From contig PFCG01000030.1 of assembly GCA_002773095.1 (NCBI GenBank), forward strand, positions 1 to 35,025: a DNA stretch of 35,025 bases, read 5' to 3'. This stretch comes from Candidatus Moranbacteria bacterium CG10_big_fil_rev_8_21_14_0_10_35_21. Lineage in GTDB: Bacteria; Patescibacteriota; Minisyncoccia; Moranbacterales; UBA2206. The position numbers and the translations under genes are program-made. Positions within the stretch are counted from its first letter, which is position 1; each line of letters begins with the position of its first letter. Of the stretch, positions 23,130 through 31,478 are shown piece by piece. A model generated the notes under the pieces. The model was not told the origin of the DNA. It saw only the letters and a program-made list of their open reading frames with translations, and made no database searches.

Positions 23130-23993
23130 ATGATAACACCAGTCAAAGAAATTTTAGAAAGAGCTCGAAAAGGCGGTTATGCCGTCGGAGCTTTTAATAC
23201 AGTTAATTTGGAAACTACTCGCGCCATTGTGGAAGCGGCTTTAGAAATGGGCTCGCCAGTGATTATCCAAATGACGGAAAAAACTATGGAATATGGAGGC
23301 GGAAGAGGAATGTATCAGTTAGTCAAAAACGACGCCGAATTTTATGCTCCATCCATTCCCATTGGAATTCATTTGGATCATGGACATAGTTTTGAAATAG
23401 TTGAGCGAGCGGCCGAGATTGGCTATAATTCGGTTATGTATGACGGTTCCAGAAAAAGTTTTGAAGATAATTTAGAAACGACTAAAAAAATTACCCAATT
23501 TTGTCACGATAAAGAGATTTCAGTTCAAGCTGAGTTAGGCAGTGTGCCTTATTTGGGAGAAGTTAATGTAGGGGAAATAGATTGGGATAAATATATGACC
23601 GATCCGGTTCAAGCGGAAAAATTTGTGGCGGAAACCGAAATAGATTCTTTGGCTGTAGCTATTGGTAATGCCCATGGCTTTGTTAAGGAACGAAGTGAAC
23701 CAGATTATGAAAGGCTAGAAAAAATCAATCAAGCGGTTAATATTCCTTTAATTCTTCATGGAGCTTCCGATTGGGAAAACGGTAGAGTATCGGAAGTGAT
23801 TAAAAGAGGTATCACTTGCTTTAATGTTGATACGGCGCTTCGATTGGCTTTTGTTAATAATTTAATAAAATCGGTTCGGGAACAAGAGAATGTTTCTTTT
23901 GATGTTCGAAAACTTTTGGGAGATGCACGCGAAGCAGTGAAAAAAACCGTCAAAGAAAAAATAAAAATCTTTGGGAGTGAAGGTAAGGCTTAA
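23130..23993 (+). CDS. fba: Class II fructose-bisphosphate aldolase
   Basis: YAVGAFNTVNLETTRAIVEAA...IHLDHGHSFEIVERAAEIGYNSVMYDGS...LHGASDW. Confidence 0.94.
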   Translation: MITPVKEILERARKGGYAVGAFNTVNLETTRAIVEAALEMGSPVIIQMTEKTMEYGGGRGMYQLVKNDAEFYAPSIPIGIHLDHGHSFEIVERAAEIGYNSVMYDGSRKSFEDNLETTKKITQFCHDKEISVQAELGSVPYLGEVNVGEIDWDKYMTDPVQAEKFVAETEIDSLAVAIGNAHGFVKERSEPDYERLEKINQAVNIPLILHGASDWENGRVSEVIKRGITCFNVDTALRLAFVNNLIKSVREQENVSFDVRKLLGDAREAVKKTVKEKIKIFGSEGKA

Positions 23994-24035: not shown

Positions 24036-25313
24036 ATGTGTTTAACTATACCGGCGAAAGTGGTAGAAATAAAAGGACGGGAAGCGATTATTCAAAAAGA
24101 ATCTGCTACTAAAACAATTGATATTTCTCTCGTCCCCGATGTTAAAATCGGGGATTGGATTTTATTTGCCAATCAAACGGCAGTGCAGGTGATTTCCGAG
24201 ACGGATGCCAAAGAGATTGTGGATCTTTTGGAAAGTTATCATCCCAATGCTCAACCGGATAAACTGTCGGAGAAATTTAAGAATATTATTGAAAATTCCA
24301 AAAAGCGAGATCTAACCAAAGAGGAAATAATTTATCTTTTGCAAACGAAGGACGCAGAAAAAGAAGCGCTGTATTCCGAAGCGGATGTGGTGCGTCGAGC
24401 GAATCTTCAAGATTTCATTTGCATCCACGGCATTATTGAATTTTCCAATTATTGTAAAAACGATTGCGCCTATTGCGGATTGCGCTGTCAAAACTCTGAG
24501 GTTAAGCACTATAGAATGACGCCGGAAGAAATAGTGTCCACAGCGGTAAAAGCAGCCAATGTGAAGGGCTATAAACTTTTGGTTTTACAATCTGGAGAAG
24601 ATCCATATTACACGGCGGAAATGTTTGCGGATATTATCCAAAAAATAAAAGCGACCGCTAAAGTTTTTATTTTTATCAGTGTGGGTGAGCGTGGATTGGA
24701 TTTCTACAAAAAATTGAAAGAAGCGGGCGCTTCGGGAACACTTTTCCGTTTTGAAACGGCTAATACGAAACTTTTTCAAAAAATGCATCCGAATGGAAAA
24801 AATTTTGAAAGTCGTCTGGAGCATTTGAAATTTATGAAAGAACTAGGATATTTTGTTGCTACTGGATCCATTATTGGGTTGCCCGAACAGACACTAGAAG
24901 ATTTAGCCGACGATATAATGATAATGAAAAAATGGGCTAATATGATTTCCATGGGACCATTCGTGCCTTCAAAAAATACGCCGTTGGAAAAAGAAAAATC
25001 GGGAGATCCTGAAATGAATTTTAAAATGATTTCAGTCGTGCGCCTTCTGATGCCGAAAATCCGCATTCCGGTCGTGACGGCTTTGGAAACTTTGGCGGAC
25101 GAAGGCGGAAGAAAAAAAGGACTTTTAGCAGGAGCTAATTCTTTAATGCTCAATCTCACACCGGGAAAATATCGTGCCAATTATAAAATATATGACAACA
25201 AATTTTTTGATAAAGAAAGCATTTGGGAAAAATATGGTCTTTTCAAAGCGGAAGAAAGCTATCAGATGATTGAAGAAAGGATGGGTGAAGAATTAAATAA
25301 AGTTATAAAGTAG
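24036..25313 (+). CDS. HypC-HydE fusion: N-terminal HypC/HupF chaperone domain joined to HydE-type radical SAM domain
   Basis: N-term MCLTIPAKVVEIKGREAIIQKESATKTIDISLVPDVKIGDWILFANQTAVQ (HypC, Cys2 kept), then CKNDCAYCGLR CX3CX2C radical SAM and HydE-like QSGEDPYY, GLPEQTLEDLADD, PGKYRANYKIYDNKF. Confidence 0.88.
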   Translation: MCLTIPAKVVEIKGREAIIQKESATKTIDISLVPDVKIGDWILFANQTAVQVISETDAKEIVDLLESYHPNAQPDKLSEKFKNIIENSKKRDLTKEEIIYLLQTKDAEKEALYSEADVVRRANLQDFICIHGIIEFSNYCKNDCAYCGLRCQNSEVKHYRMTPEEIVSTAVKAANVKGYKLLVLQSGEDPYYTAEMFADIIQKIKATAKVFIFISVGERGLDFYKKLKEAGASGTLFRFETANTKLFQKMHPNGKNFESRLEHLKFMKELGYFVATGSIIGLPEQTLEDLADDIMIMKKWANMISMGPFVPSKNTPLEKEKSGDPEMNFKMISVVRLLMPKIRIPVVTALETLADEGGRKKGLLAGANSLMLNLTPGKYRANYKIYDNKFFDKESIWEKYGLFKAEESYQMIEERMGEELNKVIK

Positions 25314-25336
25314 AAAGTTATAAAGTTATAAAGTTT

Positions 25337-25390
25337 ACCCTGTGAAATTCTGCTCCGCGGACCACGCTTTGTGTGGTATTTCACAGGGAA
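25337..25390. repeat. Palindromic repeat family A-like, copy 4, between hypC-hydE and hydG
   Basis: CCCTGTGAAAT / ATTTCACAGGG perfect 11-bp arms with inner hairpin ACCAC...GTGGT. Confidence 0.7.
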
Positions 25391-25398
25391 AAGAATTT

Positions 25399-26775
25399 AT
25401 GGATAAAATAAAAAAAGTTCTGAATGAGGAAAAAATATTTTCCATTCTCAAAAAAAATCAAAATCCTAGCAAAAAAAAGGTAGCGGAAATATTGAAAAAA
25501 TCTTTGAATAAAAAAGGACTCACTTTGGAAGAAGTGGGAGCTTTGGTCAATGTGAAAGATAAAAAACTTTTGGAAGAAATTTTTTCCACAGCCGGAAAAA
25601 TAAAAAAAGAAATTTATGGAGAACGGCTAGTGCTTTTTGCACCACTCTATATTTCTAGCTTTTGTGTTAATGATTGTGAATATTGCGGATTCCACGCGCG
25701 CAACAAGATGCCGAGAAAGAAATTGAAATTGAGTGAAATCAAGAAACAAGTGAAAATTTTGGAGGATATGGGTCACAAGCGACTGCTTTTGGAATTTGGC
25801 GAACATGAAAAAGAAAATCCGATTGACTATGTGGTGGAAGTGATTAAAACCATTTATGCCACCAAATCCAAAAAAGGTTCCATTCGTCGAGTGAATGTGA
25901 ATATCGCTTCCACGACAGTGGAAAATTATAAAAAATTAAAAAAAGCCGGTATAGGAACCTACCAATTGTTTCAAGAAACTTATCATCAAGAAACATACAA
26001 AAAAATGCACAAAGGTCCGAAAGCGGACTATGCTCGTCAGCTTTTCGCGCACGACAAAGCATTTGAAGCGGGGATTGATGATTTGGGGATTGGGGTTTTG
26101 TTTGGACTCTTTGACTGGAAATTTGAAGTGTTGGCGTTGCTTTCTCACGCCAAATATATGGACAAGAAATTTGGAGTGGGTCCTCACACCATTTCAGTTC
26201 CGCGTTTTCAGCCGGCGGATTCGGTGAATTTCAAGCCGAAACATTATGTGGACGAAAATGAACTTTTAAAAATAGTGGCCATTCTGCGCCTGGCTGTGCC
26301 ATATACCGGAATGATTATTTCTACACGAGAAAGAGCCGAGATTAGGGAAAAAGCTTTCATCACTGGAATTTCTCAAACCAGTGCGGCCTCACGCACGGCT
26401 CCCGGTGGTTATGGCAAAGGGCATAATTTGGAGCAATTTCACACGGCTGATCATCGCAGTGTGTCTGAATTTATTAGCGCGCTTTTGGAAAAAGAAATGA
26501 TGCCTAGTTTTTGCACAGCTTGCTATCGCATTGGCAGAACTGGAGAAAAATTTATGGATTTGGCGAAACCGGGAGATATTCAAAATTTCTGCCGGCCTAA
26601 TGCTATTTTGACTTTCAAAGAATATCTGTTGGATTATGCCGACAAAAAACAGAAAGTTTTGGGTGAAAAAATAATCCAGAAATATCTCAAGCTTATTCCC
26701 GACCAAAAAATTAGAAAAGAAACCCAAAAACGTTTAGAAAAAATTACTAAAGGTAAGCGAGATTTTTATTTTTAG
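25399..26775 (+). CDS. hydG: HydG-type radical SAM tyrosine lyase (CO/CN-forming family); start trimmed to ATG 25399
   Basis: CVNDCEYCGFHARN (CX3CX2C) and C-terminal CTAC-X22-C motif (CX2CX22C) diagnostic of HydG versus ThiH. Confidence 0.88.
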   Translation: MDKIKKVLNEEKIFSILKKNQNPSKKKVAEILKKSLNKKGLTLEEVGALVNVKDKKLLEEIFSTAGKIKKEIYGERLVLFAPLYISSFCVNDCEYCGFHARNKMPRKKLKLSEIKKQVKILEDMGHKRLLLEFGEHEKENPIDYVVEVIKTIYATKSKKGSIRRVNVNIASTTVENYKKLKKAGIGTYQLFQETYHQETYKKMHKGPKADYARQLFAHDKAFEAGIDDLGIGVLFGLFDWKFEVLALLSHAKYMDKKFGVGPHTISVPRFQPADSVNFKPKHYVDENELLKIVAILRLAVPYTGMIISTRERAEIREKAFITGISQTSAASRTAPGGYGKGHNLEQFHTADHRSVSEFISALLEKEMMPSFCTACYRIGRTGEKFMDLAKPGDIQNFCRPNAILTFKEYLLDYADKKQKVLGEKIIQKYLKLIPDQKIRKETQKRLEKITKGKRDFYF

Positions 26776-26788
26776 TAAGCATTTTTTG

Positions 26789-26797
26789 TGGTATAAT
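26789..26797 (+). promoter_or_regulatory. Extended -10 promoter immediately upstream of hydrogenase small subunit
   Basis: TGGTATAAT, 7 nt before ATG 26805. Confidence 0.45.
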
Positions 26798-26804
26798 TAA
26801 TTCA

Positions 26805-27572
26805 ATGGAAAATAAAAACAAACCAAAAATTGCTATTGTTAGTCTGACGTCCTGTGAAGGGTGCCAGTTTGCGCTTCTGGATTTGGGAGAAAGATTTTTG
26901 GATTTTGCCAATCAAGTAGAAATGGTGGAATTTCGACTTTTAGAAGATGAAGAAGATAAGGGAGAAAAATTAGATGTTGGAATTATAGAAGGTAATCCGA
27001 TGACAGAAGAAAATATTAAAACTTTGAAAAATCTGCGCGAGCGCAGTAAATTACTGGTAGTGATTGGAAATTGTGCCGCTATGGGTGGTATTCCGGAAAT
27101 AAAAAATTATCAAGAAGGAAAAAATACCATCAAACATGTCTATAAATATCTTCAAGGGATTGAAAATCCGGAAATCAAGGAAGTGGATAATTTTGTGAAA
27201 GTGGATTTCACTTTTCCGGGTTGCCCCATTAATGCAGAAGAATTTTTGCTGTATATGCCGGGATTATTAGCTGGAAAAATTCCCCAGATTCCTGACAATC
27301 CAGTTTGTGTGGAATGTAAGAAAAAGGGCAATCGTTGTTTACTATTGGATAAAAAGCCGTGTTTTGGGCCAATGATTTTGGGAGGATGTGATGCAGCTTG
27401 TCCGACATCTCGAATGGTTTGCCAAGGTTGCAGAGGCTTGCGTCCCAAGGGTAATATCAAGGCTATGCGAGCTACCTTGAAAAATATGATGACTGATGAA
27501 GAATTTGAAAATACTGCTGAAATTTATGGCCTCAGAGATGATTTAGAAGAAAGAGAAAAAAAGATTAACTAA
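26805..27572 (+). CDS. [NiFe] hydrogenase small subunit (group 3-like, soluble, no signal peptide)
   Basis: SLTSCEGCQFALLDLGERF; VVIGNCAAMGGIPE; FPGCPIN; additional C-rich cluster region CVEC...GGCDAACPTSRMVCQGCRG. Confidence 0.92.
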   Translation: MENKNKPKIAIVSLTSCEGCQFALLDLGERFLDFANQVEMVEFRLLEDEEDKGEKLDVGIIEGNPMTEENIKTLKNLRERSKLLVVIGNCAAMGGIPEIKNYQEGKNTIKHVYKYLQGIENPEIKEVDNFVKVDFTFPGCPINAEEFLLYMPGLLAGKIPQIPDNPVCVECKKKGNRCLLLDKKPCFGPMILGGCDAACPTSRMVCQGCRGLRPKGNIKAMRATLKNMMTDEEFENTAEIYGLRDDLEEREKKIN

Positions 27573-27575
27573 AAT

Positions 27576-28520
27576 ATGAAGGCTCTAAAGATTTTAATAA
27601 TATTATTAGCTATAACTGGAAGTACGGTCTGGTCTTTTCAAAAAAAGGTAGTGGAAGTTAAAAATGGAAAGCTATCAATAGAGGTAGAAAATATTTTTTC
27701 CACTCCTTGCTCTCAGCCGATAGAATATTCGATTGGCAATGTGGATGAACGCTTTGGAATGGCGCGGGAGGATTTTCAAAAAATAGTTATGGACTCGGAA
27801 AAAATCTGGGAAAATGCTATGGGAATGAATATTTTTGAATATAATCCGGATGGATTAGTAAAAGTGAATTTAATCTATGATGAAAGGCAAGCCAGTTCCG
27901 ATGAATCATTAAAATTAGAAAAAGAGTTGGCAGCGTTAAATTCCAGCGCTAATGTTTTGAATAAAAATTACGATGACCTAAAAATTTCTTATGAAAAAAA
28001 ATCCAAAGAATATGAAGAAAACTTAGCTCAATATGAAAAAAATTTAAAAAAATACAATAACAAAGTAGATGATTGGAATAAGAGCGACAAAAGTTCTCAA
28101 TCAGAATATGAAGAACTTAAGGATGATAAAAAAGATTTAGAGGAAGAATATAAAAAGCTAGACAAGGAAAGAAAGGATTTAAATTCTCAGTCAGAAAAGA
28201 TTAACGGAGCGGTGAAGAAAGAAAACAAACTTGTTAATAATTATAATAGCAAAGTTAATACCTATAAAGATAAATATGGAGCTACTCGAGAATTTGAAAA
28301 AGGAGTTTATTCTGCCGATATCATTAATATATATCAATATCAAACAGAAGAAGATTTGCGGTTGACCCTCTCTCATGAATTTGGACACGCTCGCGGAATT
28401 GATCATGTGGAAAATCCCTTATCTCTGATGTATTATTTAATGGCTGATCAGGATATGGATAACCCAACACTGACCAATGAGGATATTAGGGAAATGAAAA
28501 ATGTTTGTGAAATATTATGA
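27576..28520 (+). CDS. Matrixin/metzincin-like zinc metalloprotease with N-terminal signal/TM segment and coiled coil
   Basis: HEFGHARGIDH (HExxHxxGxxH) followed by SLMYYL Met-turn; central E/K-rich coiled coil; hydrophobic N-terminus. Confidence 0.8.
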   Translation: MKALKILIILLAITGSTVWSFQKKVVEVKNGKLSIEVENIFSTPCSQPIEYSIGNVDERFGMAREDFQKIVMDSEKIWENAMGMNIFEYNPDGLVKVNLIYDERQASSDESLKLEKELAALNSSANVLNKNYDDLKISYEKKSKEYEENLAQYEKNLKKYNNKVDDWNKSDKSSQSEYEELKDDKKDLEEEYKKLDKERKDLNSQSEKINGAVKKENKLVNNYNSKVNTYKDKYGATREFEKGVYSADIINIYQYQTEEDLRLTLSHEFGHARGIDHVENPLSLMYYLMADQDMDNPTLTNEDIREMKNVCEIL

Positions 28521-28619
28521 ACCCCGTTAGAATTTATGATTATACGGGATACAAAATAATAATAATTTAAATAATTTTCACTATTGGTTTAAACAATAGT
28601 TGCAAAATTCTAACGGGGT
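28521..28619. repeat. Palindromic repeat family A, long copy 5, fills the gap between metalloprotease stop and large-subunit start
   Basis: Perfect 15-bp arms ACCCCGTTAGAATTT (28521-28535) / AAATTCTAACGGGGT (28605-28619); inner ACTATTG-gtttaaa-CAATAGT. Confidence 0.8.
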
Positions 28620-29877
28620 GAATATAAAAATAAATCACATTGCTAAAACAGAAGGACATGCCGGTTTTGCAGCCAGTATTATTAAGGGCGACGTCAAGTC
28701 GGCTAAATTAGAAGTACAGGAAGGCATGCGCTTGATTGAAGGTATATTGGTTGGTCGGAATTTTATGGATGTTCCGATTGTGGCTCAAAGAATTTGTGGA
28801 ATTTGTCCGGTAGTTCATAATTTAACTTCTATTAAGGCTTTGGAAAATGCTATGGGAGTCAAAGTGAGTGAAGAAACAAAAAAATTAAGAACTCTTTTGG
28901 AATTAGGACAACTTATTCATTCTCATGCGTTGCATCTTTTCTTTCTGTCTTTGGCTGATTTTTTGGATATGGAAAATGATCTAACTTTAATTAAAGAATA
29001 TCCGGAAGAAACAAGAATGGTTATTAGAATTAGAGAATACGGAATGAGTTTGATTAAAATTATTGGCGGTAGGGTGGTTCATCCATTAACCAATGAAGTT
29101 GGAGGATTTAAGAAAGTGCCCACCACGGAAGAAATTCAACAGTTGATTCAAGGAAGTGAAAAAATTATTTCCGAAGTGCTAGAATTAGGAGAATTTTTCC
29201 GAAAAATAAAGATTCCTGAATTTTCCAGAAAAACTGAATATGTTTCTTTGGGGCAAAAAGGTCGGTATGCTATTTATGAAGGCGATATTATTTCTTCTCA
29301 GGGATTGCATATTCCGGCGGAAAAATTTGAAGCTAATTTTCATGAATTGCAAAAGCAAAAAGAAGTCATTAAAAAAGTAGAGCATAACGGAAAGAGCTAT
29401 ATGATTGGTGCTATTGCTAGGATTAATAATAATCGAGACAAATTAATGCCCCTAGCGCATAAATATTTAGAAAGTCTTGGCTGGACATTCCCGGATTTCA
29501 ATCCTTTCCATAATATTTTATCTCAAATGACAGAGGTAATTCATTGTATTGAAGAATCAGGAAAAATTCTCAAAGAATTGTCTCACGTAGATTTAAACAA
29601 AGCTTTGACTGAAAAATATGCAGTCAAGGAAGGAGTAGGTGTTGCGGCAGTAGAAGCTCCTCGCGGAACGCTTTATTATCATATTGAAGTGGATAATAGG
29701 GGATATGTAAAAAATGTGAACATTATGACGCCTACGGCTCAATTCCTTTCTAATTTAGAGGATGATATTGCTCTTTATCTTCCAAAAGTTATGAATTTAG
29801 AGGAGCATGAAAGAGAGAAAAAATTGCGGGCTTTTATTCGGGCTTATGATCCGTGCATATCTTGCGCGGTCCACTAA
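28618..29877 (+). CDS. [NiFe] hydrogenase large (catalytic) subunit, no C-terminal extension; GTG start 28618
   Basis: RICGICPVVH (L1) and DPCISCAVH-stop (L2); N-term NIKINHIAKTEGHAGF. Confidence 0.94.
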   Translation: MNIKINHIAKTEGHAGFAASIIKGDVKSAKLEVQEGMRLIEGILVGRNFMDVPIVAQRICGICPVVHNLTSIKALENAMGVKVSEETKKLRTLLELGQLIHSHALHLFFLSLADFLDMENDLTLIKEYPEETRMVIRIREYGMSLIKIIGGRVVHPLTNEVGGFKKVPTTEEIQQLIQGSEKIISEVLELGEFFRKIKIPEFSRKTEYVSLGQKGRYAIYEGDIISSQGLHIPAEKFEANFHELQKQKEVIKKVEHNGKSYMIGAIARINNNRDKLMPLAHKYLESLGWTFPDFNPFHNILSQMTEVIHCIEESGKILKELSHVDLNKALTEKYAVKEGVGVAAVEAPRGTLYYHIEVDNRGYVKNVNIMTPTAQFLSNLEDDIALYLPKVMNLEEHEREKKLRAFIRAYDPCISCAVH

Positions 29878-29884
29878 TTTTATT

Positions 29885-30044
29885 ATCCCAGCGCCAATTC
29901 CGATTTAATTGTAAATAATGTAAAGTTTAATTCGCGGATTCGCCTACGGCTTAAATATTTGATTTAATAAGTTAATAATTGCGAATTAGTGCGGGACGCT
30001 CGTTTTTATAGCCACTCGCCCAGCTCGCGGACAAAAAAGGCGTG
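29885..30044. repeat. Long composite repeat (family B with upstream inverted half), copy upstream of hypA
   Basis: tatcccagcgccaattccgatttaatt...ttaattcgcggattcgcctacggctt...gcgaattagtgcgggacgctcgtttttatagccactcgcccagctcgcggacaaaaaaggcgtg; same order of blocks at 30328-30485. Confidence 0.75.
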
Positions 30045-30317
30045 CATGATTTTCTTTTAGCTAAACAGATTATTGATAAGGTTCTGGAAATAACACAGGA
30101 AAAAAAATTGGAGCAAGTTTCCAAAGTTTTTTTGGAAGTTGGAACGATATCTATGGCACACGATAGTTTCGACGAACATCCGGAAGAAATTAATTTGGAA
30201 AATTTGCAGTTCGGATTGGAAAGCATCGCCAAAGATACAATTTTGAAAGATGTAAAATTTAATATAAAGAAAACAGAAGGGGATAGTTGGAAAATAACCA
30301 ATATTGAGGTAAAATAA
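30042..30317 (+). CDS. HypA-like nickel chaperone lacking the C-terminal zinc-binding domain (GTG start)
   Basis: MHDFLLAKQIIDKVLEITQEKKLEQVSKVFLEVGTI...; HypA-like N-terminus, no cysteines in the protein. Confidence 0.75.
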   Translation: MHDFLLAKQIIDKVLEITQEKKLEQVSKVFLEVGTISMAHDSFDEHPEEINLENLQFGLESIAKDTILKDVKFNIKKTEGDSWKITNIEVK

Positions 30318-30327
30318 AAGCGTATGA

Positions 30328-30485
30328 CTATCCCGCACCAAATTCCGAATTAGAATATAGTTTATGCATAGTCTAATTCACGGAATCGCCTGCGGCTTAG
30401 TTTGTAAAAATATTAAAATTAAAAGAGCGAATTGGTGCGGGATGCTCGTTTTTGTTCCTGCTCTCTTTGCTCACAGACAAAAATG
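30328..30485. repeat. Long composite repeat (family B), copy upstream of gap
   Basis: tatcccgcaccaaattccgaattag...ctaattcacggaatcgcctgcggctt...gcgaattggtgcgggatgctcgtttttgttcctgctctctttgctcacagacaaaaatg. Confidence 0.75.
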
Positions 30486-31478
30486 GCAAAATTAGCTATC
30501 AATGGTTTCGGACGAATTGGTCGAGCAGCCTTTAAAATTGCTTTAGAAAAAAATAATCTAGAAGTAGTGGCTATCAATGATTTGACTGATGCTAAAACTC
30601 TAGCTCATTTAATTCAATACGATACGGTCTATGGAAAATATCCCAAAAAAGTTTCTGCGGGAGAAAAAAGTATAAATATCGATGGCAAAGAATATCCTAT
30701 CTTCGCTGAACCGGATCCAACCAAGCTTCCTTGGAAAGAATTAAATATCGATGTGGTTTTGGAATGCACAGGTCGGTTTATTAAAGACGGAAAGGCGCGC
30801 GCTCATATTGAAGCGGGGGCCAAAAAAGTAATTATTTCTGCTCCAGCTAAAGGAGGGGATGTTTCCACTTTTCTATTAGGAGTAAACGAAGACAAATATT
30901 CAAATCAGGATGTTGTTTCTAATGCTTCCTGCACCACCAACTGTATTGCTCCAGTAGCGCAAATTATCCATTCAAATTTTGGAGTGGAAAAGGCCATGAT
31001 GACAACTATTCATTCTTATACTGCTGACCAAAATATTCAAGATGGACCGCACAAAGATCTTCGCCGAGCAAGAGCGGCCGCTCAAAACATTGTTCCGACA
31101 ACTACTGGTGCAGCTATTGCAACAGCAGAAGTAATTCCAGAACTACAAGGTCTCTTTGATGGACTAGCAGTTAGAGTACCCACCATTAATGGATCACTTT
31201 CGGATTTCACTTTTCTTTTAAAAAAGGATACTACAGTGGAGGAAATCAATAATGTTTTAACTAAAACTTCCCAAGAGGATAGATATAAAAATATTTTAGA
31301 AGTGACCAATGATCCGATTGTTTCTTCGGATATTATTGGTAATCCAAAATCAAGTATCGTGGATCTTTCTCTGACTAAAGTTGTAGGAGGAAATTTAATT
31401 AAGATTGTCGTTTGGTATGATAATGAGTGGGGATATTCCAATCGGTTGGTTGAAATGGTGGAACATATAATAAAATAG
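30483..31478 (+). CDS. gap: Glyceraldehyde-3-phosphate dehydrogenase type I; start at ATG 30483
   Basis: MAKLAINGFGRIGRAAFK...SNASCTTNCIAPVAQ...WYDNEWGYSNRLVEMV. Confidence 0.97.
   Translation: MAKLAINGFGRIGRAAFKIALEKNNLEVVAINDLTDAKTLAHLIQYDTVYGKYPKKVSAGEKSINIDGKEYPIFAEPDPTKLPWKELNIDVVLECTGRFIKDGKARAHIEAGAKKVIISAPAKGGDVSTFLLGVNEDKYSNQDVVSNASCTTNCIAPVAQIIHSNFGVEKAMMTTIHSYTADQNIQDGPHKDLRRARAAAQNIVPTTTGAAIATAEVIPELQGLFDGLAVRVPTINGSLSDFTFLLKKDTTVEEINNVLTKTSQEDRYKNILEVTNDPIVSSDIIGNPKSSIVDLSLTKVVGGNLIKIVVWYDNEWGYSNRLVEMVEHIIK

Follow-up and report, generated by a model that had tools for sequence, protein, structure and literature searches.

The 35,025-nucleotide stretch analysed here (hereafter the window) is one whole contig, PFCG01000030.1, of a 753-kb, 94.85% complete Candidatus Moranbacteria genome of the candidate phyla radiation (CPR) type. 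A hydrogenase locus on its + strand sits between genes for fructose-bisphosphate aldolase and glyceraldehyde-3-phosphate dehydrogenase (GAPDH). As an earlier note on this DNA had reported, both subunits of a [NiFe] hydrogenase, HydE- and HydG-type radical-SAM genes and a HypA-like gene all lie here on one strand; the HydE is fused to a HypC domain. The main features are listed below.

24036-25313, + strand: HypC::HydE fusion protein, 425 residues (TIGR00074 and TIGR03956 both above cut-off)
24036-24236, + strand: HypC domain of the fusion, residues 1-67 (HypC hidden Markov model; N-terminal MCLTIP with Cys2)
24297-25214, + strand: HydE radical-SAM domain of the fusion, residues 88-393 (TIGR03956; phmmer against Thermotoga maritima HydE, E 2e-78)
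24420-24428, + strand: Cys129-x-His131 on barrel strand 1 of the HydE domain (residue comparison; strand 128-137 in the model)
24453-24476, + strand: radical-SAM cluster motif CX3CX2C of the HydE domain, C140, C144 and C147 (sequence)
25342-26775, + strand: HydG, 477 residues from a GTG start, a later start near residue 20 being possible (TIGR03955; phmmer)
26512-26592, + strand: C-terminal CX2CX22C motif of HydG, CTACYRIGRTGEKFMDLAKPGDIQNFC (alignment with Thermoanaerobacter italicus HydG)
26805-27572, + strand: [NiFe] small (delta) subunit with CEGC (NCBIfam sulfhydrogenase delta, E 1.5e-46; PF01058)
28600-29877, + strand: [NiFe] large (alpha) subunit with RICGIC and DPCISC (NCBIfam sulfhydrogenase alpha, E 1.6e-72; PF00374)
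30042-30317, + strand: HypA-like nickel chaperone, N-terminal domain only, 91 residues (TIGR00100, E 5.5e-8; PF01155 above gathering score)

Both parts of the fusion are recognizable members of known families. The HypC part scores 58.8 bits with TIGR00074 (cut-off 48), while the HydE part scores 295 bits with TIGR03956 (cut-off 254.6) and carries the CX3CX2C motif. The whole protein was modelled with AlphaFold2, confidently across both domains (pLDDT 90, pTM 0.89), and the best PDB matches of the model were T. maritima HydE structures, including those with complex B bound. HydG reached 564 bits with TIGR03955 against a cut-off of 312, matched T. italicus HydG (4wcx) over its full length in phmmer (E 3e-167) and has both the radical-SAM CX3CX2C and the C-terminal CX2CX22C motifs. 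Curated cut-offs and motifs ruled out ThiH, BioB or PylB as identities for HydG and HydE.

Both hydrogenase subunits belong to the group-3b/sulfhydrogenase type: they resemble sulfhydrogenases and carry the L1/L2 CxxC pairs, which together define group 3b-like [NiFe] membership. The large subunit terminates in ...DPCISCAVH and has no cleavable C-terminal extension, so an endopeptidase should not be needed. Genes for the beta and gamma diaphorase subunits occur in other fusion loci but are absent from this one (the rest of the genome was not searched for them). The HypA-like protein lacks the zinc domain and its TIGR00100 score falls under the family cut-off; it is cut down to the N-terminal nickel-binding domain, as it also is in the operons of relatives.

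We searched the rest of the window genome with Pfam and NCBIfam profiles, on which all absences reported here rest. There was no match to HypD (PF01924) or to [FeFe] HydA (PF02906). HypE gave only a fragment of E 7e-4 whose reading frame contains stops. The sole HypF match, of E 1.5e-4, covered a portion of the C-terminal Kae1/TsaD-like region, as TsaD-like proteins give, and HydF searches recovered only general GTPases far under the cut-off. The earlier note had asked whether Hyp or Hyd genes lie elsewhere in the genome; HypD, HypE, HypF, HydF and HydA all stayed below cut-off (HypB was not searched), so a hidden set of either kind was rejected. The genome thus lacks the proteins that mark the canonical HypABCDEF system (HypD; HypE with HypF) and those that mark canonical HydEFG (HydF; HydA).

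The fusion is not confined to this genome. A genome collection was scanned with four fusion proteins as queries and the best 80 loci were taken: 70 encode HypC::HydE fusions and the other 10 unfused HydE, a recurrence that places the arrangement in the window far beyond chance. The carriers, named as deposited (some records are perhaps misbinned), span CPR bacteria, DPANN archaea (Nano-, Woese-, Micr- and Aenigmarchaeota), Planctomycetes (Kuenenia, Scalindua), Omnitrophota, Elusimicrobia, WOR-1/Margulis/Saganbacteria, Spirochaetes, Nitrospirae, Atribacteria and Gamma- and Deltaproteobacteria, and the cassette is conserved across these phyla in genomes of up to 4 Mb. At least one [NiFe]-system gene was present in the fetched stretch of 48 of the 70 fusion loci, and HydG in 40. 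The fullest operons (L134, L150 and L155) run beta-gamma-delta-alpha-endopeptidase-HypA-HypC::HydE-HydG, with HypB in other loci; operon neighbours identified by NCBIfam include a HycI-family peptidase, HypB (266 bits), HypA and the sulfhydrogenase beta and alpha subunits. Where an endopeptidase is present the large subunit extends past DPCxxCxxH, and both are usually missing in CPR. Group-4-like membrane hydrogenase genes accompany the fusion in L116, L131, L139 and L166, and a separate HypC adjoins it in L063 and L065.

Carriage of the fusion and of HypD proved mutually exclusive among the 50 genomes (46 with a fusion, four unfused controls) that were searched for HypD, HydF and the [NiFe] large subunit. 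HypD was found in none of the 46, the sole match among the 50 being in the unfused control Desulforamulus putei, compared with 23 of 75 surveyed genomes without a NiFe-associated HydG, nearly all of them [NiFe] carriers (Fisher p 5e-6, ignoring phylogenetic dependence). The large subunit was above cut-off in 44 of the 46 fusion genomes. HydF was above cut-off in seven of them and not in the other 39, versus three of the four controls, and it adjoins unfused HydE in 6/10 loci and the fusion in 0/70. The window genome, G407, G390, G184 and G129 each lack all three of HypD, HypE and HypF. A HydE/HydG pair in G026 was ruled out as a NiFe-linked case and not counted, since HydA (286 bits) and a HydF-like protein (319 bits, just under cut-off) identify an ordinary [FeFe] system.

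Comparison with relatives places the cassette within a conserved operon, for which three further features of the window are needed:

23130-23993, + strand: class II fructose-bisphosphate aldolase, left border of the conserved operon (PF01116; order kept in relatives)
27576-28520, + strand: matrixin-like (M10) metallopeptidase with signal peptide and coiled coil (PF00413, E 8e-8)
30432-31478, + strand: GAPDH, right border of the conserved operon (order kept in relatives)

The order triose-phosphate isomerase, aldolase, slot X, small subunit, (M10 peptidase), large subunit, HypA, GAPDH is conserved in the same taxonomic family and order. Slot X holds HypC::HydE and HydG in the window and HypD, HypE and HypF-C in family relatives. 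In G469 it comprises HypF-C, HypE and HypD (C7:4393-8633, between the small subunit and the aldolase); G688 and G542 have the same set, and in G631 and G624 it lies on a separate contig. The earlier note had looked to close relatives for conserved synteny; the operon is indeed kept there, but its maturase slot is filled by HypD/HypE/HypF-C and not by HydE/HydG. The large subunit of the window is 66-72% identical to those of these relatives, and in a single tree with other CPR large subunits it is nested, at 99% support, with eight HypD-linked sequences and five from genomes having neither system. Its HypC::HydE, on the other hand, has its closest counterparts in L101, L063/L100 and L102, which belong to other lineages and have distant large subunits. 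A resident large subunit combined with a fusion of foreign-lineage affinity indicates that the cassette was exchanged on a resident enzyme, and the supported branches of the large-subunit tree require at least five changes of fusion state. This is a one-for-one swap of maturases rather than a chance neighbourhood. An assembly chimera was ruled out by the uniform composition of the contig and by flanks that agree, on either side, with the operon of the relatives.

The fused HydE domains form a single clade (99% Shimodaira-Hasegawa-like approximate likelihood ratio support in a quick tree) that spans bacteria and DPANN archaea. Its only unfused member, L123/G390, lies at the base and comes from a genome with a [NiFe] hydrogenase and without HypD or HydF. 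Of 74 fused proteins, all retain CX3CX2C and 73 retain MCxxIP; the remaining one is truncated by a contig end. Cys129-x-His131, on the first barrel strand shortly before the cluster motif, is present in 73/73 fused domains and in L123; at these positions canonical HydE has His first in 8/10 and Arg second in 10/10 (His52/Arg54 in T. maritima, numbered after subtracting a 10-residue tag offset; the incomplete G026 HydE was left out). Glu351 occurs in 99% of fused domains, where canonical HydE mostly has Gly, and Ser305 and Ser369 also differ between the two groups. Gln185, Glu240, Arg260, Met303, Met371, Asn373, Tyr383 and Tyr386 are common to both.

For HydG, the same thresholds revealed no position separating fusion-linked from canonical proteins. 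CX2CX22C, which binds the auxiliary cluster that carries the dangler iron, is retained in 48 of the 52 HydG examined. With HydG lacking any diagnostic change and HydE having the new invariant residues C129, H131 and E351, the branch point would fall at HydE: the first (HydG) step looks unchanged, and the change appears to reside in HydE.

On the basis of the gene content, the fusion, the replacement in place, the exclusion pattern and the new invariant residues, we propose that HypC::HydE and HydG constitute a complete alternative maturation module for [NiFe] hydrogenase, with HypC::HydE probably replacing HypC and HypD, and HydG replacing HypE and HypF. We put the probability of this at roughly 0.83. 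The earlier note had suggested that HydG and HydE bypass HypE and HypF, a suggestion now strengthened by the absence of HypD, HypE and HypF, the slot replacement, the conservation beside [NiFe] genes in many phyla and the lack of HypD in all 46 fusion genomes.

It is established that canonical HydG converts tyrosine to CO and CN, building a synthon on the dangler iron, and that the canonical pair transfers it directly from HydG to HydE. In the route that we envisage, HydG would likewise cleave tyrosine and load the dangler iron as a mononuclear Fe(CO)2(CN)(Cys) synthon, the known HydG product (PMC12752695), which would pass to the HydE domain of HypC::HydE. This domain would convert the synthon to mononuclear Fe(CN)2CO instead of dimerizing it for HydF. 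That conversion, of which we are less sure than of any other step, calls for a second CN to take the place of one CO. Cys129/His131 and/or Cys2 of the HypC domain may hold the iron unit; in the classical scaffold, Fe is thought to be held between HypC Cys2 and HypD Cys41 (PMC12134894). The HypC domain would then hand the unit to the large subunit at its CxxC site, leaving HypA, together with HypB and the endopeptidase in lineages that keep them, to finish nickel insertion and processing. Both the tyrosine origin of the ligands and the identity of the product as Fe(CN)2CO are what we infer from the proteins encoded. The odds lean only slightly towards a more specific formulation, in which HypC::HydE would be a new kind of radical-SAM enzyme that swaps CO for CN at a site formed by HypC Cys2 and HydE Cys129/His131 and delivers Fe(CN)2CO through its own HypC domain; [NiFe] and [FeFe] sites would then be built from one common tyrosine-derived precursor and part ways at HydE, in a lineage distributed among bacteria and archaea.

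Several points weigh against the proposed module. Its support is genomic, with the chemistry deduced from sequence, and the 2 CO : 1 CN ratio of the HydG synthon is the reverse of that in the [NiFe] site, which obliges us to assume a ligand exchange. The window genome is 95% complete. The searches for HypE and HypF covered a 39-genome CPR set, while the wider fusion set was tested for HypD, HydF and the large subunit only. In 30 of the 70 fusion loci, including the gammaproteobacterial and most Buchananbacteria ones, the fetched stretch showed no HydG (some stretches are cut by contig ends, and HydG elsewhere in these genomes was not searched). Finally, HypD and HydG are both missing from some CPR [NiFe] genomes, so the absence of HypD, HypE and HypF alone proves nothing.

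Of the alternatives, the one that survives best, though we consider it improbable, is a [NiFe] enzyme with a modified site, for example Fe(CO)2(CN) loaded straight from the HydG synthon in place of Fe(CN)2CO. This would agree with the known product of HydG (PMC12752695) and with its lack of diagnostic divergence from canonical HydG. However, a large subunit that is 66-72% identical to HypD-matured ones and nested among them probably accepts the standard centre, and the new invariant HydE residues could perform the exchange. Less probable again is that HydG and HypC::HydE supply CO only, with CN coming from carbamoyl phosphate through HypE and HypF on a HypC-HypD scaffold. Where CO comes from when [NiFe] enzymes mature anoxically is an open question (PMC12134894), and the separate HypC beside the fusion in L063 and L065 would suit such a scheme, but HypD is missing from all 46 fusion genomes, and the window genome, G407, G390, G184 and G129 lack HypE and HypF as well.

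It is also very unlikely that the cassette serves an [FeFe] hydrogenase or another organometallic enzyme elsewhere and stands beside [NiFe] genes by chance or recent transfer. HydE and HydG are [FeFe] maturases, HydF does occur in 7/46 fusion genomes, and 22 of the 70 fusion loci have no [NiFe]-system gene in the fetched stretch; yet HydE is here fused to a [NiFe] chaperone, the window genome has neither HydF nor HydA, 39 of the 46 fusion genomes are without HydF while 44 have the [NiFe] large subunit, and the operons are conserved with the endopeptidase and HypA/HypB. Least credible is the absence of any dedicated system, or a host-derived cofactor, with the cassette decaying or otherwise used: CPR [NiFe] loci with intact cysteines and neither HypD nor HydG do exist, but the cassette is intact, lacks none of its catalytic motifs and has been conserved in different phyla, in genomes of up to 4 Mb.

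The proposed HypC::HydE-HydG module is best read as a third hydrogenase maturation route. With the classical HypA-F plus endopeptidase system it shares the target enzyme family, a HypC domain with Cys2 and HypA, as well as HypB and a HycI-type endopeptidase in other lineages, but a HydE domain fused to HypC, together with HydG, stands in place of HypD, HypE and HypF. With [FeFe] maturation by HydE, HydF and HydG it shares a HydG with CX2CX22C and a HydE radical-SAM domain, both above family cut-offs; it differs in that the window genome has no HydF or HydA, and in that HydE is fused to HypC and has C129/H131 for His/Arg. The HypX route, in which CO is made aerobically from N10-formyl-tetrahydrofolate, is likewise another way of providing a ligand to the [NiFe] site (PMC12134894), but HypX gives only CO to an ordinary HypCD scaffold, whereas here the whole Fe-ligand assembly would be replaced. 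The CPR group 3b hydrogenases hyd1/hyd2 (Jaffe et al. 2020, PMC7304191) have similar subunits and a HypC homologue nearby; the hydrogenase section of that paper mentions no HydE, HydG or HypC::HydE, and the word 'maturation' occurs nowhere in its text. The earlier note had not recognized this as a described pathway, and we too found no account of HydE or HydG with [NiFe] enzymes in the openly licensed, open-access literature (subscription papers and preprints being outside the scope). We regard the pathway as new because the defining proteins of both the Hyp and the Hyd system are missing, though each protein present belongs to a known family.

The cofactor of every [NiFe] hydrogenase has been described as the product of the six Hyp proteins, and a 2025 review lists the anaerobic source of the CO ligand as an open question (PMC12134894). 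The proposed module would be a widespread second route with a testable ligand source, tyrosine through HydG. It would explain [NiFe] maturation without HypD, HypE and HypF in many uncultured bacteria and archaea, would, if true, unite both hydrogenase chemistries at one shared precursor, and could offer a compact two-protein system for producing [NiFe] enzymes in new hosts. It also calls for caution in annotation, as the presence of HydE and HydG does not imply an [FeFe] hydrogenase.

Elsewhere in the window, the first part of the contig is a ribosomal-protein operon. The peptidase between the [NiFe] subunits is a secreted, matrixin-like protein with a coiled-coil insert; it is kept in HypD-type relatives too, and is conserved at the same operon place in L070, L071, L072 and L081. 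In G469, G542, G404, G631 and others, HypF matches only the C-terminal half of the profile (approx. 387-739), and the HypF genes of HypD-type CPR have no acylphosphatase, zinc-finger or YrdC match in the same gene. NuoG-like proteins with a C-terminal [FeFe]-type domain (PF02906) are encoded in or near maturase or hydrogenase loci of G469, G582 and G631, members of the same family (L071:5269-6720, L092, L091 and L093). The L071 protein appears by eye to keep the cysteines at H-cluster positions (FCP, ACTARK, CPEGCGNGGGQ); in these three genomes HydF was not above cut-off and HydG was not detected. Hybrid [NiFe]/[FeFe] complexes are a possible reading of these sequences.

CPR [NiFe] loci lacking both HypD and HydG but with RICGxC/DPCxxC intact (L071-L072, L075-L077, L073, L074, L079 and L080) come from G487, G698, G450, G582, G718, G383, G388, G540, G514 and G429. 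Their maturase slot mostly holds HypC with DUF6390 (PF19927) or an unassigned protein of about 220 residues. The DUF6390 genes (L073:6019-6822, L074:11298-12047, L079:1062-1688 and L080:6249-7016) encode a HypC-like C-terminal part in which the Cys of 'NCRIGWG' corresponds to HypC Cys2 (hhalign probability 92%, E 8e-7), and an EamA transporter lies between HypC and DUF6390 in three of the four loci examined (L073, L074 and L080). DUF6390 as a substitute for HypD is weakened by its also adjoining HypD in some genomes; these loci may rely on a further maturation or import route, or on a host. G407 (L065) and G383 (L073), of the same genus, have near-identical large subunits; convergent to the large-subunit gene, G407 carries HypC, HypC::HydE and HydG, and G383 carries HypC, an EamA transporter and DUF6390. 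Among fusion loci, L132, L137, L143, L145, L146, L158 and L173 have a conserved gene for a rubrerythrin-like protein (by eye) of about 156 residues close downstream of HypC::HydE; these are mostly gammaproteobacterial, with no HydG in the fetched stretch.

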